From the NCBI GenBank assembly GCA_037179385.1, contig CM074187.1, positions 48,890,879 through 48,954,878 on the forward strand: a DNA stretch of 64,000 nucleotides, read 5' to 3'. Made by a program: the position numbers and the translations under genes. The notes beneath the pieces are model-generated. The model did no database searches. It worked only from the letters and a program-made list of their open reading frames with translations, and was not told where the DNA came from. Positions 8,121 to 62,981 of this stretch are shown here, piece after piece; positions within the stretch are counted from its first letter, which is position 1, and each line of letters starts with the position of its first letter. This stretch comes from Holothuria scabra (taxonomy: Eukaryota; Echinodermata; Holothuroidea; Aspidochirotida; Holothuriidae).

Positions 8121-8707
8121 AGATATTGGCTTATATGAAGGCTATTACATGCACGAAGATAAGATATTAATAATAAGGGGGGGGGGGGGAGAAAACTCCC
8201 ATACACGAAATCCCTTTGGAATGGTTTCCCAAATGCTATTGATACGGTACCGGGTGGCCGACTGTGACCTCTCAAAATGAAACAGATCGTTCCGGCCGTA
8301 TTAGTAAGAACGTACAATATCTGTGTTATTGTCATAGAAGGGAATGGTGCGTGCGAACATGGGTGCCAACCCTGCAGGACAGTGGGACACGTCCCCGCCA
8401 TTTTGGAAATACATTCATCTTTTCATTGACTTTAAATTTTTACACAGTAAATGTTTGACGATAGTGGCCATGTCCCCTTACATTATAGTAAAGATCGAGG
8501 GTATACTGCGTGGGTGGTGAGTAGTCTTCGGGAACATCATCCGGGAGTAGGTTGTAGGCTCACTCTTGCAAATAGAGATATTGGAGTATACGTCATCCAG
8601 CCAATGATGCAAAATCGTCTTGGTTATTTGCATGTGCAATATGGAATATGAGAACTTTCGGTTACACCAATAAAATGACTAATAAGACTTTACTTACTTT
8701 GACGTCA

Positions 8708-10997
8708 CTAGCATGATGACCATTGGATACTACAAGATCGCCTATCACCGTCACAGGTACATATTTCACATCCTGCTATCATCTCCCCTTCATTCAGATT
8801 CATCCTTGAAGGCGAACATGCTGACTCTGCATAGGCAAGATAAACAAAAACTCATGTTCTGTGTGAGTTAATCTCATGTGGATATAACTGCACAGTGTAT
8901 TCTACATCCCCCTGTTACCGTATTTTCTCCTTCAATAAGCCTAGTTCTACTTTCATGACAATCGTGACTCTCTAAAAATTTTGAGAAAAGTTTTGACCAA
9001 ACTGGATTAACCATATGTCCGGCCCAAATTGGTTAAAACGTACCCATCAGTTGGTCACTAAGAAGCACTCTAACTAACTGACCAACTGCACAGTTTCAAC
9101 AACGGTTGTAGTTGCTTTTATTTAATGACCAAGTGATGGCATATTTTACCTAGTTTGTGTAGGACACATAGGTATCACAAAGTTTACCCAAATATTTTAG
9201 AGTATACGTTTAACTGATTTCTTTCAGTTTCTTATTTAATACATTAAGGCTATGGTTAATTTATCTTTCAAGGAAGTAGAAAGTTGCTAGGAGCCAGTGG
9301 CGTAGCCATGGGGTGGTTCGAGGGTTAACCCCACCCCCATGACCCAACCTTGAACGGATAATAATGGCAAAAGACACCTAAAATTTGCCGTTTTTCTCTC
9401 CCCCTCAGACTTTCCCCTCATGTCGTGCTCCAACCCCTCCCCCATGACCCAATTCTGGCTTCGCTAATGCTGGGAGCCTTCTCCTAGGTATAAGTTTGGG
9501 GAAGTTTCATTGCCTCCTCAACTTACTGAGCAGCAGCTACCGTATATATTACCGTGTTCCGGCGCTGAGGCAGTTGTAAGATTAAAACAGCGATTACAGA
9601 AGAAGGTGTCGTGATACATTATTTTATTCTCAATCGTTCAATTCAGTTAAATTTACCGGGATCGGCTGTCAAGAAAGACGGCGAGACTTGTGACGTCACG
9701 TAGAAGGAATTTTACGGTTCAGTTTCTACCCGAAGTTGATTTAAGTCGGAATGACCAAGGACATTCTTTCCACTCGTGACTCACTTGCTTGTTTCCCCTA
9801 GTCTTTTGCTTATGCTGAGTACCAAGCACATTGGCAGTAGGTTCCATTTTTTAAAGACCTCGGTATGACCCGGCCTGGAGTCGAACTCACAACCTCCCGG
9901 TTGCGAGTTGGATATTGTAACCACTGACGTCAGTGAAAGTACCATATAAGCTATACTTACCGGGTTACCTCTTTAAAAAAGAGGTATACAATTATTCCTC
10001 TTAAGCATTAAGCCTTAAAGGCAGACAGTTCTTACTCCAAGTTACAATTTTTGTAGTAAGCTACAGAAATTCTCGATTGGCACAGCTCTTTAATTGACAG
10101 CACTTTAAAAAAAATTGCCGAGTACTGTAGCTCCTATATACGCAGCGTGCACTGGGCTGAAAGTGTTCTGATTACACATTTAATTTTGATCTTGTATACT
10201 CACCCTAAAACAATAAACTGAGATTGTGTCTTGATGCGAGGAAACTTTAGACAGTTGTTGGAGCTGCTAGGAAAATTGGAACTGTCTGTGGTGAGAAAAT
10301 TAACCTTTAAGCCAAGGACTTTAAAAATGGAAATTGCAGTTTTGCGTGATAAGAAATGGAGAAGTAAAAACAATCCAGTACCGAATACAGGGAGGAATGC
10401 CGAGGGCGTCGCTTTTAAGTAATATGATATAAGTAAAGCCATAAAACCATGTCTACTTTAAAGGCCCAATTCTCTCACCCCAAACAGTACCAACTCTCCT
10501 AACCTTCTTACTTAAGCCCCTCCCACAATTGTCTGAAATTCACCCTCATCCAGACACAATCTGAGTTTATGTTGCTTCAGGGTGAGTATAGAAAAGCTCA
10601 ATGTGTATAATCAAAACACTCCCAGCCAGTGAGCCACAACTGGAAAAAAGACCGTTGCCGGCTCGACTTGAACCAATAGGTTGGGAACTGGGCCGTAAAA
10701 CTCCATCTAGCTAACTCCATCTAGCTAACTCAGTACAGTTGATGCTGTGTAATATAAGCTTTGGTAGGCCTACTCTACATTGTTTGAATTAGCAGTCAAT
10801 CAAAAATCTGAGCCAATTGAGAGTGTCTGTTATCCCATACAGGAAGTGTAGTTTGGGATGAGGGGGTTGACCCTTTACGCCTTTAGATGAAATAAAGAGG
10901 TCGTTAAAAAAGAAAACTATGCAATTTTTATACCTGATATGTAGACAAAGGCGTCTAACAACACCAACACGAGAACGAGGACTTGAACGGATGTCAT
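8708..10997 (-). CDS. Gene 1: secreted six-cysteine peptide, type A (spliced, 60 aa)
   Basis: Predicted CDS joins 10997-10934 and 8826-8708. Exon 1 (10934-11005) follows a cccatcatgcag acceptor. ATG lies 8 nt into the exon and encodes a 21-residue hydrophobic signal segment (MTSVQVLVLVLVLL...). The exon ends in phase 1 at a GTATAA donor. Exon 2 (8698-8826) follows a ttgcctatgcag acceptor and encodes 38 residues with Cys 25, 41, 44, 46, 53 and 60. Conserved words are NEGEM, GCEIC and SIQWS. The stop TAG is 10 nt before a GTAAGT donor, implying a 3' UTR exon that I could not locate. Exon 2, splice sites and frame are shared with three other loci, which is the main support. I do not recognise the family. 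Cysteine spacing recalls VWC N-halves and pacifastin modules. Secretion is inferred from the signal segment; function is unknown. Confidence 0.75.
9295..9469. mobile_element. 175-bp hAT-like MITE with empty site in unit 2
   Basis: Starts CAGTGGCGTAGCC and ends ttcgctaatg. It is flanked by ctaggagc (9287-9294) and ctgggagc (9470-9477), an 8-bp duplication with one mismatch. The paralogous site near 36012 has a single ctaggagc and no insert, which shows that the element jumped in after the duplication or was never in unit 2. No coding capacity. Confidence 0.8.
9701..9930 (-). repeat. SINE-A copy 4
   Basis: Tail 'gaattttacggttcag' at the left, tRNA-like head at the right (tatgacccggcctggagtcg, then cctcccggttgcgag). 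It lies in intron 1 of gene 1. Confidence 0.8.
10019..10306. mobile_element. TTAA-flanked MITE, copy P2
   Basis: 288 bp flanked by TTAA at 10015-10018 and 10307-10310. It begins AGGCAGACAG and ends ...ttaacct. Same family as P1. It lies in intron 1 of gene 1, and the duplicated block b (pairing with 47215) begins just after it. Confidence 0.75.
10462..10874. mobile_element. TTAA-type MITE, copy P3, interrupted by a SINE-A fragment
   Basis: Left end TTAA|AGGCCC at 10458-10462; right end ...gaccct|TTAC at 10874-10878 (TTAA with one change). The inner sequence matches copy P5 at 48477-48767, except that about 105 bp of SINE-A (10626-10730) interrupts it after 'aaaacactcccag'. Fixed order: MITE first, SINE second. 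Confidence 0.75.
10626..10730 (+). repeat. SINE-A 3' fragment (copy 5)
   Basis: Only the 3' half of the SINE is present (gtgagccacaactgg, ggctcgacttgaacc, then a doubled ctccatctagctaa tail). This is the usual 5' truncation of a reverse-transcribed insertion. Confidence 0.75.
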
Positions 10998-11400
10998 AAT
11001 GAATGCTGCATGATGGGAAAATTATTTTAAAAAGAACTGTTTTGTTAAATGTCATAGAAACCATTACCTGTACAGACTAATTCAATTTAGACGTTGCTGG
11101 AGATAATTGGTTCTCACACGCTTTACTATTCTAACGAAAAACGACACACCTAGTCTTCACAAATTAGACTGTGAAGAAAATATGAATACCAGGCCCGTAA
11201 CCACGAGGCAGAGAGCACTTGTGCAATAAAACGTTTTGGACTAAAGGATAAAACAGATATTCGTCAACAAATCATCCCAATTAATCTTTTTATATTAATC
11301 CTGCCAAAGTCGAACATCTCGCACGATTTTGCACCACGGCTTAAAAAGGCAATAAAAATTATTATACAGAGAGAGTGGGACACTCCTCCTCCTTAGTCAA

Positions 11401-12199
11401 TGTCGGCGCAAGATTGTCAAAATTGAGGGAGAGGGGGAAAACTAAGGACAAAAGATAATGTGTGGCACAAACATTTTCGGGAGAAGCGCGAAACTGAGCA
11501 CAAAGCGCCTGTTCCTGGGGGTGGTAGTCCAGGAGTGAAGTCACCGGAAGCTCTGAGTTTTATAATATCTCTGGGTGAAAGTTTAAGCCTCTGGAGAGGT
11601 ATATTATTAATTTTTTCAGTTAACCCAACTCCTATTCCTAACTGACCTAAGTTGAGGGAGCAAGTGGGGGACAAGGCCAAAATATGAGGGGCAAATTCCC
11701 CTCTTACCCCCTCCCCGTACCGCCGTCACTTTCCTCAGTACCCTTCCCAGATCGACGAGACCGCCACGCTGTTGTCCCTGGCAAAAAGGAAATAAGTCTG
11801 GCTGCGGGCCTGCTTAGTACTTACATTAGCATAAACAAGTATCCTAAGTAAAATTTCATTAAATGGCAAAAATGGCACTGTTTTTCGTGAAGATGTAACT
11901 TTAAAGTCCTGAAGTTATTAAGGAAGATAAGGGATACTTAAAAGAGAGAAAAGAAGTGATTTGTGTGCTTTGACTGTAGCTTCAAAAACGCTTGGGACTA
12001 CTTTTTATGCATTTTGACAAAATTCCACAAATTTGGGTTCCCTTCACTTCGCCCATTTTAAGAAACCTATTAGACAGCACTGCCAGAGAAGTATAGTTAT
12101 ACTACAACCTGGTGTAGGGCCCCGATGGGTAAATCGGCGCCCTGATTGTTATTATACTGTAAGTTGAAAATGAATCAAAAATTATTCAAAATCACTCAC
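11401..12199. other. Intron 0 of gene 1, no further feature
   Basis: Lies between the 5' UTR exon and the signal exon of gene 1. It has only short ORFs and a G/C-run patch at 11690-11720. The corresponding stretch of unit 2 (48466-51748) has different content: P5 and a 2-kb hAT-like element. Confidence 0.4.
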
Positions 12200-12270
12200 C
12201 TTATATCAGAAATCTCGACTACTTACGAAAAGTGTTTGCGAACTTGTCGTTGAAGAATCTGGTCGGCAAA
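12200..12270 (-). other. Gene 1: putative 5' UTR exon
   Basis: On the minus strand this ends at a ..ATATAAG|GTGAGTG donor (exon base 12200). It aligns with the putative 5' exon of gene 2 (27668-27738), sharing caacgacaagtt and cgtcgaga-type words. The spacing from the donor to an upstream GATAAAAC box is 95 bp in both. The start at about 12270 is inferred as about 25-30 nt downstream of that box. The next exon (11005) has a good acceptor and its ATG is 8 nt in, so this exon would be untranslated. Confidence 0.5.
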
Positions 12271-12294
12271 TAACTTTCAAGGCACACCCCAATG

Positions 12295-12302
12295 GTTTTA
12301 TC
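12295..12302 (-). promoter_or_regulatory. TATA-like box of gene 1
   Basis: GATAAAAC on the minus strand, 95 bp upstream of the 5'-exon donor. The same octamer at the same distance precedes gene 2. Upstream, 12310-12480, are GGGCGTGTCCAAT-like, TGACGTA and CCCCGCCCC words on the minus strand. The CGTGTCCAA part is also kept in unit 2 near 51850. Function is inferred only. Confidence 0.4.
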
Positions 12303-12511
12303 TTCTAGATTTGTTGATAGTTGATTAAGATGGGCAATGTTCGGATTGGACACGCCCCTTCGATTCTACGTCACAATTGGTGAACCACGCCCACTGCTGG
12401 GCAAAAATTAACAGTGTTTCAATGCAACAGTTACACGTGAGTCGTTAGCTACTTTCTCAGGGGCGGGGCTTTTGACGTAAGTGAAAGAACTCTAGATATA
12501 GTAAGTCAATC

Positions 12512-12686
12512 AGATATACTTAACGACACACCGACTGGAATGTTTTATATAGTGCCAGTTAGATGAAAAAAAAGTTCCAAGTACGAATTTAATAATTTAT
12601 AAATACAGCCTAAGTCCTCCTAGTTATCGCCTCTTACGACAGACGCCTCATGAAGGACATTTTTTATTCCCCCAACCCTCGGGTGC
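12512..12686 (-). repeat. SINE-C-like repeat, copy 2
   Basis: Same family as 7921-8120 (taacgacacaccgac tail, cgcctcttacgacag core). It is the duplicate partner of 51892-52075. Confidence 0.55.
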
Positions 12687-13316
12687 TTATAAGAAGTTTG
12701 TAATGGACTATGAGTCTTGTAAGATTTAAAAACGCGATCAAGGCTAACTATTCACTTTCGTGTAGTTTTATGTCTGATGTTTGACAGAATGCGGGTGCAT
12801 ATGTAATATATTATCAAAGATTATCAAATGTATAGACTTTGTTGTCTAATAAATTTTGATAGACGACGTCACGTGATCAGGTGACTATTAATAATTGATT
12901 TATAAACGATCATATTTGGAGTATCTCTTTAAAAAATATCATAGCCAGTATGTATGAGCTCGCTACCAGCACCAATGCCTCAACTGTGCTTTTAGCTCGA
13001 GAGAGGATTATATATACTGTACCCATTCTAATATGAAATTCAGAAGTTCAGTCAAGTCAATGACGGATGAAAGTTCAATTGACAAGTGTGCCCTCAGTTC
13101 ATTAGTATTTGTGGAGTAAGAATTTGCTAAACTGATTTGCCAAGCCAAAAATTGTGAAATTTTTAATGAAATGAAATAGAGTAAATTACCAGGGTTGTAA
13201 CCTGCTGGGGGAGGGAGGCAGGGGGAAACTGAGATTTCCAAATCGTAACTGCACCACGTGCTAAGAGATAGTGGTTCTTTACGTAGGCAGTATTTGTACT
13301 CCCCGACCCCCATGGT

Positions 13317-13339
13317 TTTTTTTTTTTTTTTTTTTTTTT
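13317..13339. repeat. Poly-T tract
   Basis: About 23-25 T in a row. The paralogous position near 52630 has only a short T run, so the homopolymer expanded in unit 1 after duplication. Confidence 0.85.
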
Positions 13340-13891
13340 GCCCAAGGTACGGTCCTGGATACACTCTAAAACCTCTGATAAAGTTAAAAGAATGAATTTA
13401 CTCCATTAATGTCAATTCACTCCAAAAAGAGTAAAATTTACTCAAGGAAGAGTGAAATTCCCTCCAAAATCTCGATGTTTCTTTCTTACATAGAGAGTGG
13501 TTAAGTTCACCCTTTCATGGACGAATTTTATAGTGGACTATGCCACGACCCATTTTGTAACAGCTGAGCGAAATTCAGCAATTTTCTCCCCGATGTAACA
13601 ACCATTGAAGTTGGTATTTTTAAAGTGCCGTGACTTAAGCAGGTCATACTGGGAATTCCATTCAACTTCTAATGACATACTCCACCCCTGAAATACATAT
13701 TTTAGGGTGTCTTCTGTGTAGCCATGAAAATCAAAATGGTCGCCATGACATCGGTAAGGAATTAAACTTTCTCCGTTGAATTCAGCGTTCGACTCTAGAA
13801 TTCGACTTCCAGCCCGATCTGGCTTTGTTTGACCAAGTTACGAGAGGTAAAGTTATTTTGTCGGCAATTTTGGGTTTTATGACGTCAGCCG

Positions 13892-15101
13892 CATGGGCGG
13901 CGATATGTGTTTGAAAGTGGGGAAATTTTAGTCGGTGTTACTTATCAGAGCCGTATCTAAATATATTTCTCTGTTACTTATCTAAGCCGAGCGCCACCCC
14001 CAGTTGGCGCGGAGCGTTCAAAGACAATTTCGGCCTATTGTAATAGTATAGGAAAAATAAATGTTGTCTGATTGCCTTACAAAGGGGATTAGGGGATAAA
14101 GGTTCTGAACTGAATTGATTGAAAAGAAAATTATTAATTGAACATCATTGATAATTTTATATTTGTATATGCCTGTCTTCCATTTCCATATAAATGTTAG
14201 TTATTTCAAGTCGATTCGATGCATATCAGAGTCTTTTAAGTTTTTTGACACTGCTAGGGGTCTTTACAATTGTATAATGAAGCAATTTATATTTTTGTGT
14301 TCACTGCTTACAATCACGTCTCTTTTAGTATTCTTAATGAAAGCCAAAGTATTAAGTAATTGTTCATAATCATCAGTCATTTTCTACATTAAAGTATTCT
14401 TAATGATGGCCTAAATGTTAATTAATTTTTTATAATCATCAGTTATTTTTGAATTAAATAATTGTAATACTTTTTTTCAAATGAGACAGAGAGAGTCGAT
14501 AAAACAGAACCGAAAAGAACAACAATAACGGCAATGATTTTCAAATTAAAAATCACCTCAAGAACCATGTGGAGCTTACACTGCGGTATAGTTAAACTCA
14601 TCTGGAAAAGCAGAATCCCAACTTGTATCGGAATAAAAATATTATGTACAAAATCTTTTGCAATGTTGATGACATTTAAATACTATATATGCTTTCCCTG
14701 CATGTAAAGGTCACTCTATTAGGATATATATGTGTATATGTAATAAATGGAAATTCCCCTTCTGTTTCAAACACACAAATACGCTTATCGGGGATTAAGG
14801 GTACCAGTGCATTTGTGAAATATGTTCATGTTTTAGTTACTCCGTTGGATGGTGTACAGAACTGTCAAGCTACATTCACACGTTCTCTTCTATTTTTAAA
14901 GAAACGGTTTTTTGTTATATTTTAAAGCGTGGATTTTTGTAGTCTTTTAGTTTTTCGTTCTATTAAGAACTTTTCATAAAAGCATACTCATTTTTTTTAC
15001 AAAATTTCCGAATCTGAAGGTTTGTTTCCATGGGGGAATATAGTGTCTCTCCATCCAATTTCATGGGGATGTAGCCCATCCCCCAAGGATCGCCGCCCAT
15101 G
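13892..15101. mobile_element. 1.2-kb hAT-like element with empty site in unit 2
   Basis: Ends are CATGGGCGGCGAT at the left and ATCGCCGCCCATG at the right, a near-perfect 13-bp inverted repeat. Flanks are gtcagccg (13884-13891) and gtcacccg (15102-15109), 8 bp with one mismatch. The other unit has a single gtcacacg at 53722-53729 with no insert. It contains one copy of the GCGGAGCG-type hairpin (13986-14016). No transposase was seen, so it is non-autonomous. Confidence 0.85.
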
Positions 15102-15731
15102 GTCACCCGAATCACCCAAGTGAGCGGGAAATAAACCTCCTAGATGTTTTAGACCACGATGAGTTCAAAGTTCAAGCAAGTTTTAGCCCGGAATGACGCC
15201 ATATGACGTTATATGTTTCATGTGTGGAATATGTCATCAGATAATTGTGCAACTCCCAGTCTAATGCGATTTTGCTTGGTTACATTGTTACGTTTTGGGC
15301 AGAAAGTTATTACATTTTGGACTAAGTTGTTGCAAAATGGGTGCCAACAGACTTCTTATTGTGAGTCATGTGTCAATGGCCAGTGGTATTTGTTGAAGTC
15401 AAAGGTGGACTTCGGAAAGGGGGCCGAAGACGAGTAATGTTTGATAAAGTTCACAGTAGATCAGCTACAATGAGTTGTTTGCTTAAGGCTAGTGGTGGTT
15501 GATATATTCTATAATGGACCACTTCCGCTGGCCTTTGCTAAGGCGATATTTTGGTTGGTAATGTTCATAGGGAATTTTTCTCATAGGTGGTGTACCGAAG
15601 ACGTATTTAGGTAGCAATTACATCTAGGTCTGAGCCTTTTAAAGATATTGGCGACTTACCTTTCCGAAACAGAGAGCTAGGAAAGACAGGAAAGGAAATG
15701 AAACCATGGCTCCGTCCCCATGGTTACAACG

Positions 15732-15785
15732 ATGCTTCTCGGCCTTTTGGCTAATATCATATGTAGTATCTGTTCTTTTCATCCA
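15732..15785 (+). pseudogene. U2 snRNA 5'-end fragment
   Basis: About 50 nt closely match the 5' end of U2 snRNA: the conserved cttctcggccttttggct stem I, and tgtagtatctgttctt with the GUAGUA branch-point recognition sequence intact. Differences begin after 'gttctttt', and the Sm site and stems III/IV are missing, so this is a truncated pseudogene. It lies in a roughly 240-bp segment that is absent from the paralogous place in unit 2 (about 54350-54370). Confidence 0.85.
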
Positions 15786-16759
15786 GTCTAGAATGGAGCC
15801 TTACATGACGGACCAAAGATGCAAATGGTATGAGGGCCATGAGGTTGGTCACGTGTTGTCCTTCAGTGGACGTAATAACTTCTTCGGGAAGCACTGATTT
15901 TAAAGTTTGGTTTCTCCGAACGGCCTTTTTCGAGAGGGTCGGGAGGACTTTGGAAAAAGTATGACTACTCCAGATATTTTGAATTTGACGTCAATCATAT
16001 AGGTAGTACTAATAAGCCAGTTCGGTAAGTCATTTTGGTGGCTATGCACATGCACATATCCTCCAAATCGCCGGGATAAACAAACCAATCCCACACCTAC
16101 AACACGTACCGTATTCCATAATTTGAGTTTACACGAAAATTTGGTGAAACCATTCTTTCCTAATCCCCCCATAACACAATGAGGCATCTTAAGTGTGGTT
16201 TTGTGCAGTGGACTGTGTTCTTAATTCCCATTTTGTTGTAAAAATTAACATTTTTATCTGCCGTATAAAGTAGCACTGAGACCCCTGTTTTAGGTTCGAC
16301 TTTGAGGCCCCTATTTTAGGTTCGACTTGGCTAGACATATAGACAGTGTTTTACGCACTGTCGAAAACAATGCAACGTTGCACGCTACGTGCTGAGCTCG
16401 GTTTGTATATTCCACGCTGTGCCCCACACTCCCATACAGCAACACTGATTGAGAGTTTGTACCCCTTTTTTAGCAAAAATGGTTTTGGAATGACAGGTTG
16501 TTTAGAATACGGTTGCACAATCTTAATCGGGGGCTGATAGATTTACGTTCAAAATTGTTACAAGTTTGCCCCAATATAGTACGTCTTTTGAAAGGAAAGT
16601 AGGAAATATTCTAATTGGACTGAATGTGAAGGAGACCGTCTGATGGAATGTGAGTAAACTCATACTTGATTTGAATAAAGCTCAGACAATCCAACATATA
16701 CCCAAGCCAATTCAATGTATTCTTATTCCCAATCATAGCTTCTTCTTCTACACTATCTA

Positions 16760-16863
16760 TTAGAAATGCACATGCAACCTTTATTTAAATAACATGCATC
16801 GTGTTCCTAGAATTAACGGGCTGTCATTTTGAAGTCCAAACGTCCATCGTCAAAGATTTGAAG
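16760..16863 (-). other. Gene 2: putative 3' terminal exon with AATAAA
   Basis: On the minus strand an acceptor (ttctttaatgtttcag) precedes a block that is highly similar in unit 2 (57200-57250). An AATAAA (16780-16785) follows 78 nt later. Because exon 2 of gene 2 contains the stop just before a donor, this would be 3' UTR. The first 51 nt also form a short frame (LQIFDDG... ending TAA) that stays open in unit 2. It cannot be read from exon 2 because of the upstream stop. The joining to gene 2 is inferred. Confidence 0.4.
16780..16785 (-). terminator. Polyadenylation signal AATAAA
   Basis: Canonical hexamer on the minus strand downstream of the putative 3' exon of gene 2. The matching position in unit 2 reads aattaa and not a canonical signal. 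Confidence 0.35.
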
Positions 16864-17119
16864 CTGAAACATTAAAGAATGAGAAAATAAAATTGTTAGA
16901 ACTACATAAGATAGGCATTTAACAACATCGGTTCATATCGGTTCTTATTGATGAAGATCAAACGTGTAGCCAAGGGGAAGGGGTGACACCATGACTGAAG
17001 GTTGGAAAAAATGCTTATGACATTGGCAAGGAAAAAGTGATCACTACAAACTTTTACCATATTGCACCTGGAGACCTGAAAATCTGAAAATTTGTTTTCT
17101 CCTAAAGGTGTGGAGAAGC

Positions 17120-18460
17120 AAAATAAGGGTAGGTGGTGTCATCATCTGACGTCACTTGTCAGCCGTCGAACCGCACATTTTTTAGGAAGAGCCCGAGTCA
17201 TACGTGTGACTCATGCGAAAGAAAACTTAGGCTTTATGATTTGGCCGGGGGTTTTAAGACATTAATGTTCCACGATAGCTCTTTGGCTGGTGGATGCAAA
17301 GGCGCTTTTAATAAGCGGGGTATGAAATTAGTTTCAAATTGATTCTTATGATCAAGCTAGACCGGTTTCTGGTCTCATACGTTATAATAGCGGAGCTTCA
17401 TCAGTAGCAAACCTTTAACTCTGTGTGGGTTTGGGATATTCAAAATATTTATATATTTTCTTTCTCGATTGCTTTAAGTTGAGCATCGAGTAAAGTATCA
17501 TCTGAAGCTATTCCCTCTAAGATTGAGTCGTTCTCAAACTAAGATCTCAATATTTCAGAGACTTTCATGATTTTTAGCCTATTTATTGTAGGCAGTTTAT
17601 CCGGTCATCCGGGAAAAGCTTCGCGAATTGCTTATGTTAGAGAGTTGTGTGCGAGCGCTTATCATAAGCATTTTTATGCACTGTTCCAACATGTGAGGTA
17701 ATATGCCGTTCTGTAGAACCGGGGTGGCTACGTAAATTTTCTTTGTGGTTAATAGAGTGTCTTTCTCTTTGAAAGTCGAGGTGACTATTTAATCACGATC
17801 TTGGTATTAGGTATTCTCTGTGGAATTAGAGAAGACTTTTGTAGTCTAGGATACCACAGAAGCGTTGCCCTTACTATATTCAAAATCTACAGCTCCATAA
17901 TTCGTCAGCAAGTTCTAAGGTCCGGTTTGGTTGACGGCGCGCCATCTATTAGAGTGGCCAGGTCGAAAATAGCGGAACCAGGTGAAAAGCCTACTGCTTT
18001 TAATATTAGCATAAGGAGACGTATTCCCGATTTTCCTTATTCGTTGCTTAGGATCAGAAGAATACTGACTCGGAGAGGCTTCTCTGTTCAATTTTTGGAG
18101 ACCATACCTCAGCCGCAATTAACTCTCCTGTTGACATTTGTTTGCCTGAGAGGTTGTAGACGTACTTGGGTGGTTCTTTCGCCTTTTAGGTTGTGGGCGT
18201 GAAAGCAACTTAAAGCAAGTCTAAAATTTCCTTTGGGGATATGAGACCATTCATAGTTTCGAGTAGCTTCGAGTGCGTTTTATCGCAGGGTTTCTGTCAC
18301 GTTTGTACATAGGGTTTTCCACAAATAACTGTAGCAGGACGGATGGAATAGGATGTTCAGTGTTGGACGGGTTTAGTAAGTTACGGAGTCTAGAGGTTGT
18401 AGTAACTATATGTGTAGTTGGTTGAACTTTTGGCCTTTCAGTGGCAGAGTTACCAAATTA
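17120..18460. other. Unit-1-specific segment of unknown nature
   Basis: Flanking sequence aligns to unit 2 (about 57600 and 58400), but this stretch does not. It contains a 133-codon plus-strand ORF (17801-18202), rich in Arg and without any motif I recognise, plus a shorter minus-strand ORF. It may be a transposon remnant; I found no terminal repeats. Confidence 0.4.
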
Positions 18461-18502
18461 CACTTTCCTGTGAGATTTTTCGTCGAAAGTCTTTGGCAGA
18501 TA

Positions 18503-18806
18503 TACCTTACTTTCACGCCAAACAGTTTCATCCTCCTAACCTACTTATTTAAGCCCCTCCCACAACTGTTTTAAATTTATCCTCATCCACACACATGAAT
18601 CTCAATTTGCGGCTCAAGGGTGAGTATACAAGATCCTAATGTGTAACAAAACACTCTCAATACAGTACATGTTGCATATAGGATGAGTTTCGATATTCTG
18701 CATTTTTTGACCTTGCTGTCAATCAAAGAGCTGTGCCAAGTGAGCATTTCTGTGGACTATGTACCACAAAAATTGTAGTTTGGGGTGAAAGGGTAAATCC
18801 AAAGAA
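18503..18806. mobile_element. TTAA-type MITE, copy P4
   Basis: Same family as P3 and P5 (caagccc-type block 'aagcccctcccacaactg', 'tgtcaatcaaagagctg', 'aattgtagtttggggtgaaa'). The TTAA ends are eroded. It is orthologous by position to P6 (58411-58587), so the insertion predates the duplication. Confidence 0.65.
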
Positions 18807-19051
18807 ACGCAAACGATTTGTCATGCATATGGATATTTCTGGCTTATGAACAAGTGACATGCAGTTCTGGCCGCCGTCTGTACCTTATATATTTAACCTA
18901 ATCATTTCGTGACATAATTTTAACACCAGTCTGATAAAATTCATACATTCATTTAATAGTTTACGAAATACGATCAGTACTGGTAAAGCTTTCATACGGT
19001 TCGCCAAGACTTCCTTCCAGAGTTTTAGTTCCACATACCTCCCCCTTTGAG

Positions 19052-19164
19052 TAGCCCGCGGGACGGACGAATTTTTTCGTCCAGCTCGTCATCGCTACGA
19101 AAAAATCAATCTGAGGGGCGGCAGCCTAAAGGGGGCTGCAGCCACAGAGGCGCTACGCAGGCTA
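19052..19164. mobile_element. 113-bp miniature element with 9-bp TSD
   Basis: Flanked by identical ccctttgag (19043-19051 and 19165-19173). Ends are TAGCCCGCG and, inverted, TAGCCTGCG. Inside are two strong hairpins: ggacgaa/ttcgtcc around a T run, and gcagcc/ggctgc. A 9-bp duplication fits Mutator-like elements; an 8-bp duplication plus a chance base would fit hAT. Confidence 0.7.
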
Positions 19165-19239
19165 CCCTTTGAGTTACTTGAATAGTGTGTTCGCGAGCTT
19201 AAGTAACGTTCGTCGACGCACTATTGCATGCTAAGTTGC

Positions 19240-23732: not shown

Positions 23733-23738
23733 GTGTGT

Positions 23739-23773: not shown

Positions 23774-23779
23774 TGTGAC

Positions 23780-48465: not shown

Positions 48466-48476
48466 GGCTCCTCTCC

Positions 48477-51815: not shown

Positions 51816-53730
51816 AGTTTTTTTTTCAAATGGGCAATGCTCGTATTGGACACGCCCTCGGTTCCATAATGCGCATGTTATTTAGTTAATCAGATGGAAC
51901 TTAACACGGTCTTTTCAGGCCTGTATAGTGTCAGTTGGATAAAAAAGTTCAAATGAGGTTCAAGTTCGCTTTCAAATAGACCTTCTATATTAATACAGAT
52001 CAGGCCTTACCTCGTTAGTAGCTTCTTACTGCAAGTGCCCCGTGAGCATGTTTTCCAAACCCCTCGTCTTTATGGGACTTATAAAAAGTTTAAAGTGCAC
52101 TGTGACCACGACTAGCTACTATTGAATCACTTTTGTGTGGTTTTACGTCTCAGGTTTGAAAAAATGCCGATGCACGTATGTAATATAATATCAAAGTTTA
52201 TCAATTGTATGGACTTTCTTGTCTAGTAAATTTTCATAAACGATTTCACGCGATCACGTGACTATTGGTAGATGATTTACTGACAACCATTCTAGGGTAT
52301 TTCTTTCAAAATGTTCCAAATCCAGTGTGTATCATTTAACTCCCAGCACAACTGCCTCAGTCATGTCAATGACGGATGGAATTTCAATTGACAAACGCGC
52401 CCACAGTTTATTAGAATTTTTGAAGTAAGAATTCGCTTAATTGATTTTCCAAACCAAAATTAGTGAAATTTTATATGAAATGAAATGAAGCACTACACCA
52501 GGACCGTAACCTGATAGGGGAGGGGGTCTGTCAGGGGGTAACTGAGATTTCCAAATCGTAAATGCACCCCTTGTAAAGGGATGGTGGCGTTTTAAGTAGA
52601 TAGTGTTTGTATTTTCCCTCCTACCCCCTTTTGGTTTTTACCCATGGTGCGGTCCTGGATATAAGTTCCTGTATATGTTGTTCTATGGTGAAAACAGAAT
52701 TAATCAAACAGTACAATTTACTACTGGAGATCTGCTAGCGACTAATCATGAGTGAAGTATAAAGCCGAGAGGAAAAGTGAAATTTGCTTAGATCTAAGCG
52801 GAAACTAGTCAAATATTTGAACCAGTTTCGGATGAGTGCCTAATGGATTACTTTTCTGTTCATTTCGAAACGAAAGCGTTTTGATTGCCGTAGTACGCCA
52901 TTATCAAAATGGTCCTGTATAGTGATGGTTGGTTAAATTAATAAAGGACCAGTCTCATTGGCCATGAGCCAAAGTGGTGGCTGATGAATTAGTTTATAGT
53001 GGGTCCGTATGTCGTGAAACGAAAGCGTGTGATTATTGATTAAGTTATCGATGAACCGCTCTCAGGGGGATTTGTGTCGAAGGCTAGTGGCTGTTTATTA
53101 AGTTAGCTAATCGACCGACGACGAATGATGGTTTACAAAGTTGCTTTGGATCACTTGCAGTGGGCCATGTGCCACAGCTCGAAGATAAGTGATGGTTGAT
53201 GGATGCATTAGTGGACTTCTCCCATGGAACGAGAGGTAGTTAGTGAAGTTTGTAGTGGACCCCTCCTATGGATCATGTGGAGGAGACGAGTGATGTGATG
53301 GAGTGATAAATTTATCATTGGACAACTCCCACAAAGCATGTGCATAAAGCAATGGTTGATAAATTTGAAAGTGGACCTCGCTACGACCCATTTTGTAACA
53401 ACTTGCGGAAGTTGTTGGTCCAAAATGTAAAAATTTTCTGCCCAGAATGTAACAACAATGGGGGTTGGTATTTTTAGAGTGCCATAATTAACCAGGTTGG
53501 ACTGAGAATTCAACTTCTAATGATACTCACGATTCCTGAAATAAATATTTTGGGGTGTCTTCTATGTAGTCATGAAAATCAAAATGGCCGCCATGACATC
53601 CGACTTTTTCCGTTGAACTCATGCACTGGACTCTAGAATTCAACTCCCATCGAGGGCCCTTTTTGTCTGGCCAAGTTACGATAAGTGAAGTTATTTTGTC
53701 GGCAATTTTGGATTTTATGACGTCACACGA
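51749..53730. repeat. Duplication unit 2, block c (pairs with 12240-13890)
   Basis: Collinear with 12240-13890, including SINE-C copy 5 (51892-52075). A stretch at about 52670-53390 has no good partner in unit 1. Confidence 0.8.
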
Positions 53731-53981
53731 ATCAAACAAGACTAAGTGAGCGGAAAACAGACCTAGATGTTTAAGACCACCATGAGTTAAAAAAAGCAGG
53801 TTTTCAACTTGAGTCTAAACTCACCTCATGACGTCATAGATATTTCATGTGTCGAATTAAAGTTGTTGGGCACAGAGTTGTTCCATTTCGGATCAACTTT
53901 CAAGTTGTTGCATTCCGGGCAGAAAGTTATTATATTTTTCACCAAGTTGTTACATTTGTTCAGTTGTTATAGAACGGGTCG
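53394..53981. mobile_element. Inverted-repeat element flanked by TA
   Basis: Starts CGACCCATTTTGTAACAACTT and ends with the diverged inverse (gttgttatagaacgggtcg), with TA on each side. Inside, the words gttgttacat and cagaaagttattac recur. The same element is in unit 1 between about 13545 and 15350, there interrupted by the hAT-like element 13892-15101. TA duplication fits Tc1/mariner-type or similar, tentatively. Confidence 0.6.
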
Positions 53982-54565
53982 TAACAGACCTCTCCACTGC
54001 AGTGAGTCATGTGTCTAAGGCAAGTGGTATTTGTATAAGTTAAAAGTGGACCTCTTAAAGAGGGCAGAAGACGAGTAATGTTTGTTTAAGTTAACGGTGG
54101 AACGCCTACAATGAGTCATTTGCGTAAGGCTAGTGGTGGTTGATATATTCTAAAGTGGATCACTTTCACGTGCCATTGGCATAAGAGGATGTTTTAGTTG
54201 GTAATGTTTATATGGAATTATTCTCAAAGGTAGTGTGCCGAAGGCGCAATTATGTAGCATTGACATCTGGGTCTGAGATATTGGCGACTAATGTTTCGGA
54301 CACAGCTAGGAAAGGCATAAAAGGAAATAAAACCATGACCTGCCCCTCCATGACTACAACAGTGCCGTTGCTACTCTGCATCTTTTGAAATTGACGTCAA
54401 TCATACAGGAAGTACTAATAAGGTAGTTCGGTAATTCATTTTGGTGGCTATGCACATGCGCACGTCCTCCAAATTGTCGAGATGAACAAACCAATCCCAC
54501 ATTTACAACACGTAGGCCTATTCGAAAATTTGAGTTTCGACCAAAATTTGGTGAAATCATTCTTT

Positions 54566-56564
54566 CAGTGGCGTAGCTAGGATTTTTTCCAGGGGGGGGG
54601 CAAAGGTATGAAATTTCCCCAAAACTTTTCCCGGTCAACGTGTATGTATTTCATATAAAATATGCAAACTTACAAGTATAACAACATTACCATGTCATTT
54701 TGTAATATTACCTGCATTTTAATCTTAAAGTATAACATAGAGCAATCGGAAATAACAAAGTATATTATTTTGGTAAACAATGTCTGGTTTATTTGTATGT
54801 ACTAACGCAGTGGCGTACGCAGGATTTCTCTGAAGGGGGAGGGGCATGCATTATGGTCTAAGGGGAGGGGTGTCCGGAAATTTTTTGACGTTTTCAAGGA
54901 GCCTACATGCAAAATGGTGCAAGATATTCGACTTTGACAGGAACAGTGTTAAAAGTTGAATCGTGGTGGTTCATGAGGATAAAAGTGAAACTTTTGTGTC
55001 TTGACATGCATTTATTTATGCCATTTATGCTACCTTACGAAGAAAAACTTGTCATTAAATTTGCACACTATTAGGAGTCAAAATAAAAGAGCATTGATCG
55101 GTATTTGTGGTTTTTCTTGGCCACAAAATGTTATTTTGTCATAAAGATTATCTAAGCGGAGCGCCACCATTGGTTGGCGCGGAGCGTAGAGAAAATTTGG
55201 AAAAATCAGACCCCTTAGATGGCCGGAAATAGCATTTTCCAGGCTAATACGAAGAATCTAGCAAGTCGCTTTCTTCTTTTGTCGTTTGCAATAAAATGCT
55301 CACTTCAAAATATGTTCGCAAACTGCAAAGTGATCAGAGAGTTAAGAGCTAATTTTACCCCAAATATGTAATTTTGCCCAAAAGACCGAGCGAAGCGCCA
55401 CCATTGGTTGGCGCGGAGCGTAAAAAAAATTCGAAAAATCAGACCCCTCAGATGGTCAAAATAGCGTATTTATGCTTGTAAAGAGAATCTTAACATGTAG
55501 TCTTTTTTATCGATGCCACCAGTGGGAAACAGAGTCTACCTTTTTAAGTAAAAATTGGAATTTGACAGAATCTGCCTAGGTCTATTTGTAGGAATTATAA
55601 AAAAATTGGCATCACTGAAAGACCTTGCAGGGACAATCCTTCCCCCTTTGAAAATTTTTGAAAAATTGGGTGTCCTTGTAAGCAATCTGGTGCCACATAT
55701 GCTATCTTTTGAAGTAAAATCTGTGTTAATAAAGTTACACTACGTATTTTTAAGAACAAAGGAAAATGGCATCTGTGAGCTGGGGCATGGCCCAATGGTT
55801 TCCCCTTCGCACGCCATTAAGGAGGCCTAATAGTGGCTCGATCACACAGGATATCCTGTGAGAAAAGCAGTCTGTTAAGTGTAGAAGGCTACAAGGTACT
55901 CATTGCCCATTTATTGTTACACTCAAAGTGAGCAGAAAGCTATTTTCCCGAACTAGCTTGTAAGATTCCAAGGATTAGGCGAAGTAACAAAATCTAAGTG
56001 TGCCAACGGATCCCGTTAATTCTAATTTCTAGATTAACTTTAAGTTTATCGTTGGCCATGGATGTTTCAGCCCCATCCATCGTTATGTACACAGAGTAAA
56101 ATCGTACAGCTACTGCTAGCTTGTAGAAGAACATAACAACCTCGGGGGTCTACGGTAGTGACTTGTCAGTTTTCACATCCTTTTACTGAATTTCCAAAGT
56201 ATCACCTGAATAACAGCTTCCTGTGCACTGAAATGCACTGATCATAACCCCCGTGCGTATACAAGCACAAAAGAACACTCAATCTGCTACGCGACGAGGA
56301 TATTTTTGTGGAACGCGAATTGGGCCGGTTCATGCAACACTGACGAAATCTGAGTTAATTTGTTGCATGAAAATACGAATTATGTATTAGAAATGTCTCA
56401 CGATTTCTTATTCTAACAAAAATTTTTAAGAAATTTCTTGTGAAATTTATGTAATAATAAGGAGATTCATCAAATTTCCCCATTTTCATCAAATTTCCCC
56501 CAAAATTTTTCCAGGGGGGGCAACTTGCCCCCCTGCCCCCCCCCCCCCAGTAGCTACGCCACTG
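54566..56564. mobile_element. 2.0-kb hAT-like element with empty site in unit 1
   Basis: Perfect 8-bp duplication cattcttt (54558-54565 and 56565-56572). Ends CAGTGGCGTAGCTA on both sides in inverse orientation, with G/C runs inside. The paralogous site in unit 1 (about 16151) reads accattctttcctaatcc with no insert. It contains another element end (cagtggcgtacgcagg at 54808) and two inverted copies of the hairpin module (55156-55186 and 55386-55419). No transposase motifs. Confidence 0.9.
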
Positions 56565-57199
56565 CATTCTTTCCTAATCCATCTATAACGTAAAGAGGGA
56601 TCTCAAGTGTGGTTTTGTGCAGTGGAGGGCGTCTTCATTGCCTTTTTGGTGTAAAAATTTGCATTTTTATCTGCCGTAAAGAAACACTGAAACCCCTATT
56701 TTCGTTCATCTTGGCAAGACACTCAGAGTTGTTTGCACGTATTGACGAAAACAAGGGAACGCTATACGCTACATGCAGTGAGCTCGATTTGTAAATCCCG
56801 CGCTATGTCCCACAATTTCATGCGCCAACGAATTACCGAATTCGTTTACTGAGAACTTGTGTCCCTAGCAACACGATTGCAATTGATAGAACACGGTTGC
56901 AAATCTTAATTGGGGGCTGATAGATTTACATTAAAAAATTGTCACAGGTTTTTCCCTAAATGTATGTCTTTTGCACAAAAATAGGAAATATTCTTCTAGG
57001 GCAGAATGTGAAGGAGACGGTGTCTGGGTTGCACGCCCTGTCATGCACAGTTATACTTGATTTGAATAAAACTTAAACAACCGAACATATACCCAAGCCA
57101 ATTCAAATTATTATTCTATTTATAATTCCCAATCATAGCTTCCTACAACCTATCTATCAAAACATGCAATCTTAATTAAATAACATGCGTCTTGTTCCT

Positions 57200-57250
57200 A
57201 GAGCGGGCTGTCATCTTGAAGTCCAAATATCCATCGTCAAAGATTTGAAG
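57200..57250 (-). other. Gene 4: putative 3' exon
   Basis: Matches 16813-16863 with the acceptor (caatatttcag) kept. Over the first 48 nt there are 4 differences and no indels. The following AATAAA of unit 1 reads aattaa here, so the 3' end may be elsewhere. The link to gene 4 is inferred from order and strand. Confidence 0.35.
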
Positions 57251-58410
57251 CTGAAATATTGAAGGATGAAAAAATAAAAATTGTTGAAAAATTATATAAG
57301 GTATCCATTTGAGGACAGCGGTTTGAATCGGTTCTTACAGATGAATATTAGGCGCCTAGTCAAGTGGAGGGCGTGGAACCATATGACCCAATTTTAAAAA
57401 AAAACATACTGATGACAGTGCATTGCAAAGGAAAAGGTCATCACTGTAAATTTTTACATTCGAAGGAAAACATTTTGCATCATGTTGCATCTGAAGACCT
57501 ACAAGAACGTTTTTTTTCTCCCACGGTCAAGAGAAGTTTCTTCACTCCTAATACCCCTTGTAGTCTTTTAGAAGTCACACTGGAAAACCTCCTCTGGTGA
57601 TAAATCTGCAGATCAGCGCACATGGTGACGACATGGCGGGAAACTCATCTTGATGACAAGCAAACACGATGTCACCTTGTGCCCTGACTTACGAATAAAA
57701 TTGTTCATACTACTTCATGTTGAAAACACCCCCTCCCTTATGCACCCCAACCCACACAGTGACACACACCAAGAATATAAAAAGTAGGTAAAAAACTAGT
57801 CAGATCTTGATCCGAACGTGAGAAAAGTGTGGGGCGCTCTGGAGGACCCCTTAGGCATTGAGACCTTCTGGCATCCGTGGTAGCCAGAGGACCGAACTGT
57901 AATGCGCCTTTGAGCTTCCTGGACAAATTAACTTGCCTCACCTCAAGGTTCTCATGGATATTGTGTTAGACCGTGAGAAAATTTACGAAGATGTAAAAAA
58001 AATTAATGGGGAGGAAAAATGACCCAAACAAAAAGGACCACAGCGTTTTAGGCAACCTACATGGCTGCCTCGACCGCAGGAACAGTAATGTAAATGTAGC
58101 ATAATTTTCATGAGATGCAGTGCAAACCCATAACGAATGCACGCTAAGCGAACTAAAAATTTGCATTCCTATATTTTCGTGATAAATCTTGCATTCGCAC
58201 TCTACATGAAACCGGTCAATTTGTCAATCAGAGGGCGTGCTTTCACTCTAAAAAAAATCTGGTCTTATTTGCATAGAATCTAATCAATTGGGGCGCTTAC
58301 CGGAATCTTGTCAAATCTATGACTAGATTTGACTCATAAATGAAACGAATGGTTCCATTTTATGAACCATTTCTAATCACTTTTGAAACGAATCTTTTCA
58401 AATATTTGGC

Positions 58411-58587
58411 AAGTATAAAAGACCCCAATGTGTAATCAAAACACTCTCAGTACAGTACATGATGTATAGGAAGAGCTTCTGCACTCTGCATTTCTTGCAC
58501 TTGCTGTCAATCAAAGAGCTGTGCCAAGTGGGCATTTGTCTGGATTATACTACAAAAATTGTAGTTTGGGGTGAGAGGGTTAGCCCT
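58411..58587. mobile_element. TTAA-type MITE, partial, P6
   Basis: Right part of the family (tgtcaatcaaagagctg, aattgtagtttggggtgag) ending ...gccct|TTAA (58588-58591). The left third is missing. Same insertion as P4. Confidence 0.65.
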
Positions 58588-59059
58588 TTAAAACGGAAAC
58601 GATTTGTCACACAGATGTGGATTTCTGGCCTATGAGAAAGTGACAGTTCTGGCCGCTGCCTGTACCGGATATATTAAACCTAGTCATTTCTTGACTTAAT
58701 TTCAACACCAGTGTGATAAAATTCATATATTCATTTAATATATTTAATATATGGTAGCGGTAGCGCAATTTGTCCTTTTTTTTTTGTTAAAATTTTATTG
58801 CAAACGAAAGCTCAAAGTAACGACTGCTTCAATTCTGTTTTTAATCCCGGAAATGCCACTTCCAACTGTCTTGTCTGTCTTTTCTGTACGTCCCACGCCA
58901 ACCGAGGGAGGTCCTCCGCTAAATGGTCTTTTGGACAACCACCTCTTCTTATGCCCTGCCCCCAAATAGTATTAATTGAACAGTCAATGTATCAAACGTA
59001 TTTGTCTTAAGTTGTTATGTGAAGGCAGGAACAATTATTGACTAATCTGTCCCTAATTA

Positions 59060-59245
59060 TCACATTTATGGAGTGCTTTCACAGTCGTCACAAGCCCCGC
59101 CCCTTTTAACGAGCACAATCTAGTGTAGTACGCATTTAGTGTGGCTAGCTGAGACGCAGCTGACGACCACGTGTAATAAAACACTGTTGATTTTGCCCGG
59201 CAGTGGCTTACAAATTGTGACGTCACCAAAAAAAGGTCTCAGTAA
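59060..59245. repeat. Unit-2-specific segment sharing inverted sequence with the gene 1 promoter region
   Basis: Contains agccccgcccctttt, accacgtgtaataaaacac, ttgcccggcagtgg and aattgtgacgtcacc. All recur in opposite orientation and the same relative order at 12370-12480, just upstream of gene 1. It is absent at the matching site of unit 1 (about 20590), so it is probably a mobile repeat. Confidence 0.55.
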
Positions 59246-59470
59246 CAGCCACCGTGACGGTAGACTGCCAAGCTCTATATCCAAAGGAAACAATTACATT
59301 AGCTGATTGCTAGAAATGGACAATTTTCTTAACAATTTTAATGAACAGGAATAATTTATATTAACCAAGGTTCTGCATTATTTTATATATTCGAGATGGA
59401 ATGATATCGCTGGGAGAACTTTCTGTCACAATTAGAATAACATAACCCGTCTTTACTTACTTTGACATCA

Positions 59471-61312
59471 CTAGCATGGTGACCATTGAATATAACAACT
59501 GCCGTCGCAGGGGCAGATTTCACATCCAACTACCGTCTCACCCTCACGAAGGGGCATCCTTGATGGACATGCCTCTGCATGAACAAAATAAAATGTCGAT
59601 TACGTAAATAATGATGTTCTGTCAAAGAGTTCCAAAAAGGGTGCAGTCGCGGTATAGCACAATAGTGAGCTTAAAATTTTGCGACGCGGCTGACAACTGC
59701 AACGCAATGACGTCACTCCGGCGTTGCCCATGACATTCCACAACTTGGTGTAGTCACGTTATTTCGCGTTGCGCTTCAAGCGGCATAAGCCAACATGACG
59801 TCAGTTCGCTGTAGATGAGGTCCGCGCCGTGAAATCTAAAGCTCCACTAAATCTCAAGAAAAAATGCTTTACTTAGTTAGTATCTCCGTAGGCAATTTGC
59901 TTTAGAGATTCAGTTTTCATCCCCTTAAAGAATATTTTTTTGCTTTTTTTGAAGGTAATGAATTTTGCCTCCAAAGATTCTTTTAACTCCCATATAATTC
60001 CCTCATTAATTTTCTGCCTCTTTCTTCCAAGTAATCTTTTAATACCTACAAATTATGGTCTTACCGTTCTTATATATGGACATACACAAATTTTGCCCGA
60101 ATTTCTAAAACTTTCTCACAAATTCGGAAGTTGTCCCAAATATGAGGGGGGTGCCCGTCAAATTTCCACTTCTCATACAGTAGTCTATGTCTACTGGAAA
60201 GACATTTTTAGGATAACGTAGTGGTCAACTTGTGGTTAACAGATGATCCAAGTGTGTGCTAAAGGAGAACCAGAGTCAAAGTCCCACAACCCCCTTAACA
60301 AAAAAAATTCAAGTGATTTTGAATCATATGCTCCTAACTAAATCCCCTTTCCTCTTTAAGCTATACAACTCGGTTCAAATACACCCTTCCCCTCAAGGTA
60401 TGATACCACTCTGGTCATTTATCTTGGATAACCGACTTAAAACTGCTGTCTTCCAGACTATTTAGATGAGATAAATAGTTCGTCAAAGACTTAATCAGGA
60501 GAGATCGGAAAGCACACTCCCCCAAGACAAAAGAGGTGGGACATAGGGAAAAGGAAAAAAAAGAGAGAAAGGGAAGGACGAAGAGGGAAGAGGGAAGGGC
60601 AGGCGGTAGCGGAACTATTAGTCAGTTCGGTTATTCGTTTTGATGGATATGCACATGCGCATATCGTCCAAATCGTTGGGATAAACCAACCAATCCCGCA
60701 CCAACTACACGTATTCCAAAATTTGAGTTAACATGAAAATTTGTTGAAATCATGCTTTTTTAATCCATCCATAACGTAAGGAGGGATTTCAAGTGTGACT
60801 TTGTTCAATGATTGTGTCTAAAGTGCCCTTTTGGTGTAAAATTGCATTTTAATCTGTCGTATCACGTAACACTGACATCCCTATCTTCATTCGACTTGGC
60901 TATACACTTGCATAGTGTTGTGTGCACGTACTGATGAAAACAAAGCACGCTGTATGCTCAGCTACGTGCTGAGCTCGGTTTGTACAGTTGTATTTGTATA
61001 TCCCACCTTGTGCCCTACAATTCCATGCGACAACGAATTATCGAACTCGCTTGTATTTCTCAAATGTAGCACCGTTTTGCATCTATCCCAACCTTAGAAA
61101 GCCAATATTTTCAAAAATGGAGGAGGACACCCGTCTCCTTAGAACCATCCCCAAGACGGCAGTGAGTCGTTTTTTCATCCGTACCCCAAGATGAAACCTG
61201 GCTACACCCTTGTGATTCGTTGAAAAAGAAAGTACAATTTTTCCTTACCTGAGATGTAGGCAAAGGCGGCGAACAACACCAGCACGAGAATTACAATATG
61301 AACGGTTTTCAT
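59471..61312 (-). CDS. Gene 4: secreted six-cysteine peptide, type B (spliced, 55 aa)
   Basis: Predicted CDS joins 61312-61250 (plus phase-1 base 61249) and 59574-59471. Exon 1 (61249-61320) follows ttttctcaccag, starts ATG 8 nt in, and differs from gene 2 exon 1 by one base (V6I) across the coding part. Exon 2 (59461-59574) follows ttgttcatgcag and has the same six cysteines at 24, 39, 42, 44, 48 and 55, stop TAG, then 10 nt to GTAAGT. Against gene 2 there are four replacements in the mature part (K/R, M/T, I/V, E/D) and several silent changes; every cysteine and GCEIC, IQWSPC are kept. A 5' UTR exon should lie beyond 64000 and a 3' exon is proposed near 57250. Appears intact; secreted by inference, function unknown. 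Confidence 0.8.
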
Positions 61313-62981
61313 ACTGAATGCTGGTGAGAAAATAGTTTCAAAGAGTATAAAAGTTTGGTGACATGAAAATGACAAAGTTGGTTATTTGATGCAAAACGCA
61401 TTGACAACCTAGAATACAGTCTCAATTGCAATCAAACTTTAGTAAAAATTGATCAGTTTACGGGGTAATTTCTGATTTGCACTTAGTCAAGCATGTAGCC
61501 AAGAGCTAAATATGGCCGATGCGCACTGTTAGAAAAGAAATTTATCAACTATAGCCCTAATGCCTAACCTAAACCCTACCCCTAACAAAGAATACAATTG
61601 ATACAATACAATTTCAACAGCCAATCAAGAAATTCCTTGTTAAACGGCTTAATATGCAATTTTTGCGATGTCCAGAAAGGGAGAGACCTTTGTTGTTGAA
61701 ACCTTCATTTTAATGACAGTTTAAATATTAACATGTCTTTAGGGTTCATTTTGGAAGTTATAATTACGTCCTTGAATACCATCAGTATCAATTACCGTAA
61801 ACTAAGTGATGAGTTAGAGTAATTAAGAGAGAATTAATACAGGGTGAGAAAAGAAATGTCGGCACCGTGCAACACTCCCCATCACTATTTTTGCATGGCC
61901 AACACACGTACTGTTCCAGAAACATTTAACCTTTCAAGAGGTATACCTTGCAAATGAATAAGAAAGGTATTGGCATAATTCTAATGACAATTTCCTGGAA
62001 ACCTTACTCTTTTACTAACTCAGACAGATATTACTCTAATTGGCAGAAGCATTTTACTGAAAACATTTGCAATCTCACAACTTGTTCTCCTTTATTAAAA
62101 TCTACGAAATCATCCGAGTAATTTTATTTTTAAATTGAACTCAGTTTTATACAATTTTATATTATAGGCCTATGGTAAGATAATCCTGACAAAGAAAAAG
62201 GTCAAACAATCATTAGTCCAATTTATTTAGTCGGTTTAAAGATAATTCACGTGGGGAGTTTTTATTCATAGTCTTAACACCACATGGATTAAAAGAAACT
62301 TAAGGCATGGTAATGGGGATTGGAAGATTCTTTTAGATTATTATCTGAAAGATTTTGGAAAGGAATTTGCCTTTGAATGTAACTTTAGTAAAGATGACAT
62401 TCCTAAGATTAATGATCTGTTTGTAACTGAAGCTTGGTCTTTGCTAAGTTTTAAGGTAAAGCTTGGTCTTTGCTAAGTTTTAAGGAACCGACAAAAAAGA
62501 CTGGAAACGGGATATTTGCCTATAAAAGATAATTATAACATAACGTTGTGTTTTACGAGTTTCTGCACTCTAAGGGAATTGATTATGTTTACAATTCTTT
62601 CAATAATGATGTAATGCCCGTGACGTATGATGAGTTTGTCGAAGTTTATAAGCTAAATAATTTTCCCTTTATCACATATAATGGATTAATTTCTGCTATT
62701 TCAACTTTGTGGAAACAAAACTTCAATAACACAGATCATTCTTACAATCCTAATGAGGCTTTAGTTAATAGGTGGCTTGGCTTTTCAATGAGCGTATGGA
62801 AATATAACCTATGAAATCATCACCCAACCAACAGCCTTACCGAAATGGAATTATCACTTAAAGAAGGATCCATGGTCAAGTTCTTATCTTTTCTAATGCG
62901 TGGTTCTCATTAAGAGATGTTAAGTTACATTACTTTCAATTCCGTCTTTGCATGGAAATTGGGGAGCTAATGTCAGGGTCA

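Follow-up and report, generated by a model that had tools for sequence, protein, structure and literature searches.

The window analysed here, a stretch of 64,000 nucleotides (G000:C9:48890879-48954878) with a G+C content of about 40% and containing repeats, raises the question whether its minus strand carries a cluster of small secreted six-cysteine peptide genes, and what such peptides would do. Its size and its introns indicate a eukaryotic chromosome. A first-pass annotation, made from the letters alone, had proposed four loci on one strand, each with a signal exon and a mature exon, and had made no firm claim on function. Through tblastn and a six-frame scan, we found all four: three intact two-exon genes on the minus strand (A, B and C), which are very probably real genes, and one dead copy (P, at 35.4 kb). 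The proposed cluster is supported by the gene layout, by constraint on the exons, and by a diverged gene (E) that keeps the same six cysteines and the same splice phase. The origin of the cluster by tandem duplication, gene E, and a further copy (F) on another contig are additions to that annotation.

In genes A, B and C, a signal exon of 64 coding nucleotides (21 codons plus one base) is followed by a phase-1 intron and then by the mature exon:

10934..10997, minus strand: signal-peptide coding exon of gene A, 21 codons plus one base, phase-1 donor
8708..8826, minus strand: mature-peptide exon of gene A, coding part including the stop; the exon probably runs on to 8698, with the donor GTAAGT at 8697
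10998..11005, minus strand: the 8 nt between an acceptor-like CAG and the ATG of gene A, suggesting an intron in the 5' untranslated region (UTR)
22213..22276, minus strand: signal-peptide coding exon of gene B, phase-1 donor
20837..20943, minus strand: mature-peptide exon of gene B, coding part including the stop; the exon probably runs on to 20830, with a donor at 20829
22277..22284, minus strand: the 8 nt between an acceptor-like CAG and the ATG of gene B
61249..61312, minus strand: signal-peptide coding exon of gene C, phase-1 donor
59471..59574, minus strand: mature-peptide exon of gene C, coding part including the stop; the exon probably runs on to 59461, with a donor at 59460
61313..61320, minus strand: the 8 nt between an acceptor-like CAG and the ATG of gene C

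By these coordinates the introns of A, B and C measure 2107, 1269 and 1674 nt, and the joined reading frames stay open throughout, encoding 60, 56 and 55 residues. The tblastn matches placed the signal exons at 10997, 22276 and 61312, upstream of mature exons at 8821-8711, 20944-20840 and 59575-59474, all on the minus strand. The exon edges implied earlier (8698, 20943, 22213 and 61320) fit GT/AG sites. The gene models have the hydrophobic signal and the short cysteine-rich chain of a secreted cysteine-rich peptide gene: maxima of 12-residue Kyte-Doolittle hydropathy exceed 3.0 in A, B and E, and the mini-proteins count 32-39 residues from the first cysteine. The earlier statement that no open reading frame caller would see these genes is fair for coding exons of 64 nt and of 104-119 nt including the stop, though an RNA-guided gene caller could find them. 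Secreted peptides with such short exons easily escape gene annotation. Two observations concern the introns. Within the intron of gene A, at about 9820-9960 on the minus strand, there is a stretch that looks like a tRNA-derived short interspersed nuclear element, with a B-box-like GTTCGACTCC. Dispersed fragments at 16012-16443, 54418-54566, 56566-56836 and -36937 to -36547 (window scale) are 72-81% alike to part of the B and C intron; they may represent a repeat, or else what is left of additional gene copies.

The mature exons of A, B and C share the pattern C-x14/15-C-x2-C-x-C-x3/6-C-x6-C. The six-frame scan detected it three times in the window, each time on the minus strand. A stricter form of the pattern also occurred three times in the window and in none of 60 windows simulated by an order-2 Markov model. 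A looser form, searched over 264 kb (the window and 100 kb on each side, 200 kb of flank in total), returned nine rows, namely A, B (two overlapping), C, E and four others; the last four come from two frames that are rich in cysteine but unrelated, both outside the window at about -57 kb and -73 kb (window scale), and were judged to be chance.

Selective constraint was estimated by the NG86 method with our own script, using pairs among A, B, C and E. The ratio of nonsynonymous to synonymous rates (dN/dS) of the mature exon was 0.18 (B-C), 0.18 (A-B), 0.23 (A-C), 0.22 (B-E) and 0.26 (C-E); the synonymous estimate of the A-E pair was saturated, leaving ratios for five of the six pairs. These values argue clearly for purifying selection on the mature exons. 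Between B and C, 161 of 172 coding positions are identical, against 1279 of 1621 in the non-coding pieces compared (Fisher p 5e-7); the coding pieces in this comparison differ by a few bases from the final exon boundaries. The signal exon behaves differently, with synonymous and nonsynonymous rates not significantly different in any of the six pairs. In A, B, C, E and F, synonymous sites seem better conserved in the signal exon than in the mature exon. For A-E, we counted 2.0 synonymous changes at 13.8 sites in the signal exon versus 21.2 at 27.3 sites in the mature exon (p 1.6e-4), and the same test gave p 0.015 for B-E and p 0.10 for A-B; these are three of the six pairs and are not independent. 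Such conservation could result from gene conversion, from a regulatory signal within the exon or from an RNA constraint.

How the cluster arose is indicated by self-comparison of the window. The regions 7.35-26.7 kb and 34.1-64.0 kb are largely colinear, with a shift that grows from 26.7 kb to 36.7-40.4 kb:

7350..26696, no strand assigned: first copy of a tandem segmental duplication, holding A and B
34077..63994, no strand assigned: second copy, with P and C in it; insertions, among them a retroelement at 36-38 kb, have made it longer
35430..35550, minus strand: mature exon of copy P, dead, with a frameshift and the fourth cysteine gone
47990..48066, minus strand: probable signal exon of copy P, with an in-frame stop, an indel and an altered donor

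The pairs A+B and P+C are, as read from this colinearity, an old tandem duplication in which A corresponds to P and B to C. From the same layout, the exons at 35.4 kb and 48.0 kb would belong together as copy P, separated by a retroelement and further sequence. The mature exon of P is 89% identical to that of A (109/122), against 69-73% for the adjoining DNA (281/383 downstream, 296/428 upstream); therefore the P exon probably stayed under constraint over most of the period after the duplication and died late. The first duplication copy also contains a 2.3-kb stretch (22994-25314) with a 301-nt tandem repeat; in the second copy, the corresponding flanks adjoin each other at 62016/62018.

Relatives were also found outside the window. 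Gene E, intact and diverged, lies 41-44 kb beyond the window end:

108289-108226 (window scale): signal exon of gene E, 3.0 kb upstream of the mature exon and in the same phase
105201-105071 (window scale): mature exon of gene E

A hidden Markov model (HMM) built from A, B and C found E with an E-value of 1.2e-4 among the 9114 stop-to-stop frames of the 264 kb, where frames outside the family scored 0.69 or worse. The mature exon of E is 37% identical to that of B, and its chain keeps the six cysteines as C-x15-C-x2-C-x-C-x6-C-x7-C. The motifs GCEIC and IQWS, which the first-pass annotation had called invariant, are present in A, B, C and P; they are not invariant in the family, for intact E has ACRVC in place of GCEIC and no IQWS. 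In all four intact genes (A, B, C and E) the stop follows within two residues of the last cysteine. At 77641-102617 (window scale) there is a very young tandem array with a 3.06-kb unit, in seven full and two partial copies (pieces above 800 nt), 99.66-100% identical; it ends about 2.5 kb from the E mature exon, and no family exon was found in it.

Genome-wide searches covered an assembly of 1.19 Gb in 31 contigs. A 27-nt pattern of the signal start, allowing at most three mismatches, gave four matches, all in the family (E, F, A and P), and none in the reversed control; B and C lie more than three mismatches away from it. Copy F, on contig C8, has an intact signal exon from C8:3415469 and, 2.9 kb further on, a mature exon with all six cysteine codons and a frameshift between the second and the third. 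Single-protein queries of the whole genome gave 5, 4 and 12 matches, of which 0, 1 and 2 were not counted, and the counted ones all lie in the cluster, except one signal exon on C8. At the sensitivity used, the genome would thus hold six loci, four intact (A, B, C, E) and two broken (P, F); the single-protein searches score only the best candidates, and diverged copies may escape them. Among the matches set aside, C1:41122403 (one of four, E-value 0.62) lies in a 301-residue frame of unrelated look, and those on C2 and C21, two of the five matches of a further genome-wide search, showed no six-cysteine frame among the frames listed, with the reversed control also giving two. C13:47421606 and C9:44107967 (two of 12) were not counted as family. 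The latter (C9:44107967-44108068, E-value 0.97, 41% identity over 34 residues) is on the same contig, 4.8 Mb away. Its frame retains three of the six cysteines in positions that would fit, reads SLQY against the SIQW of A, and may represent a relative that has decayed or diverged.

Splice-like signals also stand outside the coding exons. All six copies compared (A, B, C, E, F, P) have an acceptor-like CAG 8 nt ahead of the ATG, and the eight bases after the CAG read CMTTCAKT. A donor-like GT follows within 40 nt of the stop in all six; TCAAA/GTAAGT is common to A, B, C and P, whereas gene E has GTGAGT 6 nt after the stop and copy F has GTAATA 32 nt after it. Together, these signals suggest introns in both the 5' and the 3' UTR of the six copies. 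A distance from stop to junction this short should not trigger nonsense-mediated decay.

To what known family could the peptides belong? Pfam queries with A, B, C, E and their consensus, at E-values up to 10, listed no match to VWC (PF00093), in a search whose HMMER filters discard many weak matches. The sole Pfam match was RECK FnI (PF25028) to residues 14-32 of the mature E peptide (E-value 0.059), whose 14.1 bits do not pass the cut-off of 30, and A, B and C had none. Of the PDB searches by sequence and profile, one gave no match, and the others gave a designed repeat protein (E-value 0.05, no stretch passing alone) and two chains related to the major histocompatibility complex (0.67 and 0.88), all judged chance. 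Against a set of 5.8 billion proteins, the A-B-C alignment gave 11 candidates, none at E-value 10, and E gave no candidate; this search requires exact words in common, and its power is low for spliced genes. A literature text search for GCEIC found none. One peptide-word match, in PMC10977697, lay inside an engineered scaffold peptide unrelated to the family. There is no convincing homologue in Pfam, the PDB or the protein set. In sequence the family is new, though its kind is familiar; it has no convincing match yet is clearly constrained. Lineage-restricted families of cysteine-rich peptides are common in animals.

The annotation had described the likeness to VWC halves or pacifastin modules as one of spacing only; this holds, as no profile match passes its cut-off, and three predicted strands can now be added. 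An AlphaFold2 model of B from four sequences has three beta strands with a mean predicted local distance difference test score (pLDDT) of 86.5. A VWC domain contains ten conserved cysteines in two subdomains (PMC10326224). All four intact genes have only six in the mature chain, and the family forms stand-alone peptides in which the second VWC half is absent. The spacing C1-x14/15-C2-x2-C3-x-C4-x3/6-C5-x6/7-C6 of the four fits a loose pattern for the first six cysteines, those of subdomain 1 (SD1), a pattern set down once the family spacing was known; the three strands predicted for B may add to the likeness. The chances are about even that the fold resembles the first half of a VWC module.

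The pacifastin inhibitors (Pfam PF05375) have the signature C-x9,12-C-N-x-C-x-C-x2,3-G-x3,6-C-T-x3-C; none of the four intact genes matches it, and membership was rejected. The likeness consists of six cysteines, a C-x2-C-x-C core and about 35 residues, and in gene E also a C-T-P start and a threonine after C5; the family differs in its C1-C2 gap of 14 or 15 instead of 9-12, in lacking the asparagine after C2, and in a C5-C6 gap of 6 or 7. Antistasin-type domains have G-C-x2-C-x-C in common with A, B and C, and E does not fit. Such domains have a cysteine-rich N-terminal part. The family lacks it and gave no Pfam match, and antistasin was rejected.

The layout, the constraint and the duplication history are read in the DNA itself, and the strands are predicted; splicing, secretion and disulfide pairing would run as follows. 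The gene order would be 5'UTR exon, intron, signal exon, phase-1 intron, mature exon with the stop, intron and 3'UTR exon. The signal peptide would send the chain into the secretory pathway, with cleavage at the first cysteine or immediately ahead of it. The six cysteines would be oxidised, probably to three disulfides, and would lock the predicted three-strand fold, which may be likened to VWC SD1 or to a pacifastin module. The mature peptide would be extracellular and bind another protein there; a candidate contact is the C5-C6 loop (IQWS in A, B and C). We somewhat favour the reading that these are secreted mini-proteins, a family with the build of a VWC first half, and that they probably bind another protein. 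Inhibition of a protease or of another secreted protein is our leading, though tentative, guess among the functions; a defence peptide, a growth-factor modulator and a venom-like role follow in that order. These alternatives share the gene reading, and their odds overlap with those of the favoured one. A more specific proposal, rather speculative, is that these are stand-alone SD1-only mini-proteins of one animal lineage, overlooked because of short coding exons, with the signal exon constrained at synonymous sites and the mature exon diversifying around six fixed cysteines. If expressed, the peptides would offer a compact and testable scaffold with three disulfides, and they might be an example of one VWC half existing by itself.

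The same genes could instead encode host-defence (antimicrobial) peptides, acting on microbes and not on a protein target, which we consider unlikely. Immune effectors typically come in families of this sort, small, secreted, cysteine-rich, tandemly duplicated and in part pseudogenised, and the mature peptide of E has a net charge of +2. Those of A, B and C have -2, unlike most membrane-active cationic peptides (a mild argument), and the mature exon is under purifying and not diversifying selection.

Less probable still are signalling peptides or BMP/TGF-beta modulators acting as an isolated SD1. The cysteine spacing and the three predicted strands point that way, and in CV-2 the SD1 part of VWC, with an N-terminal clip, binds BMP2 (PMC10326224); spacing alone is a weak guide, with no VWC profile match and the second half absent.

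A venom-like or secretory-gland peptide, with a frozen signal exon and a diversifying mature exon, ranks slightly lower. The conservation of signal-exon synonymous sites is unusual in the three pairs tested, and it resembles what is seen in conotoxin families. There is no room for a propeptide between the signal and the first cysteine, dN/dS is below 1 in the five computable mature comparisons, and only six copies were found.

It is improbable that the exons are part of a larger gene or a mobile element and yield no free peptides, as the splice-like signals on both outer sides and the many intron repeats might suggest: the four intact genes have their own ATG, a hydrophobic start and a stop close behind the last cysteine, and only six loci were found at the sensitivity used. 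Readings as a non-coding conserved block or as a mobile element were rejected. That these are chance open frames or a family with all copies dead is very improbable, for although two of the six copies are broken, the simulated windows gave no occurrence, frames and cysteines are kept in E, and selection is evident.

Of the remaining contents of the window, Rfam and tRNA searches found nothing. Inside the span of dead copy P, a reverse transcriptase frame of 432 residues (36225-37520, Pfam RVT_1) probably belongs to an element of the non-LTR (long terminal repeat) type. In the protein search, 7219 of 8000 scored candidates reached an E-value of 0.001 or below; among the 120 matches listed, the closest protein is 90% identical and the others are at most 53% identical.

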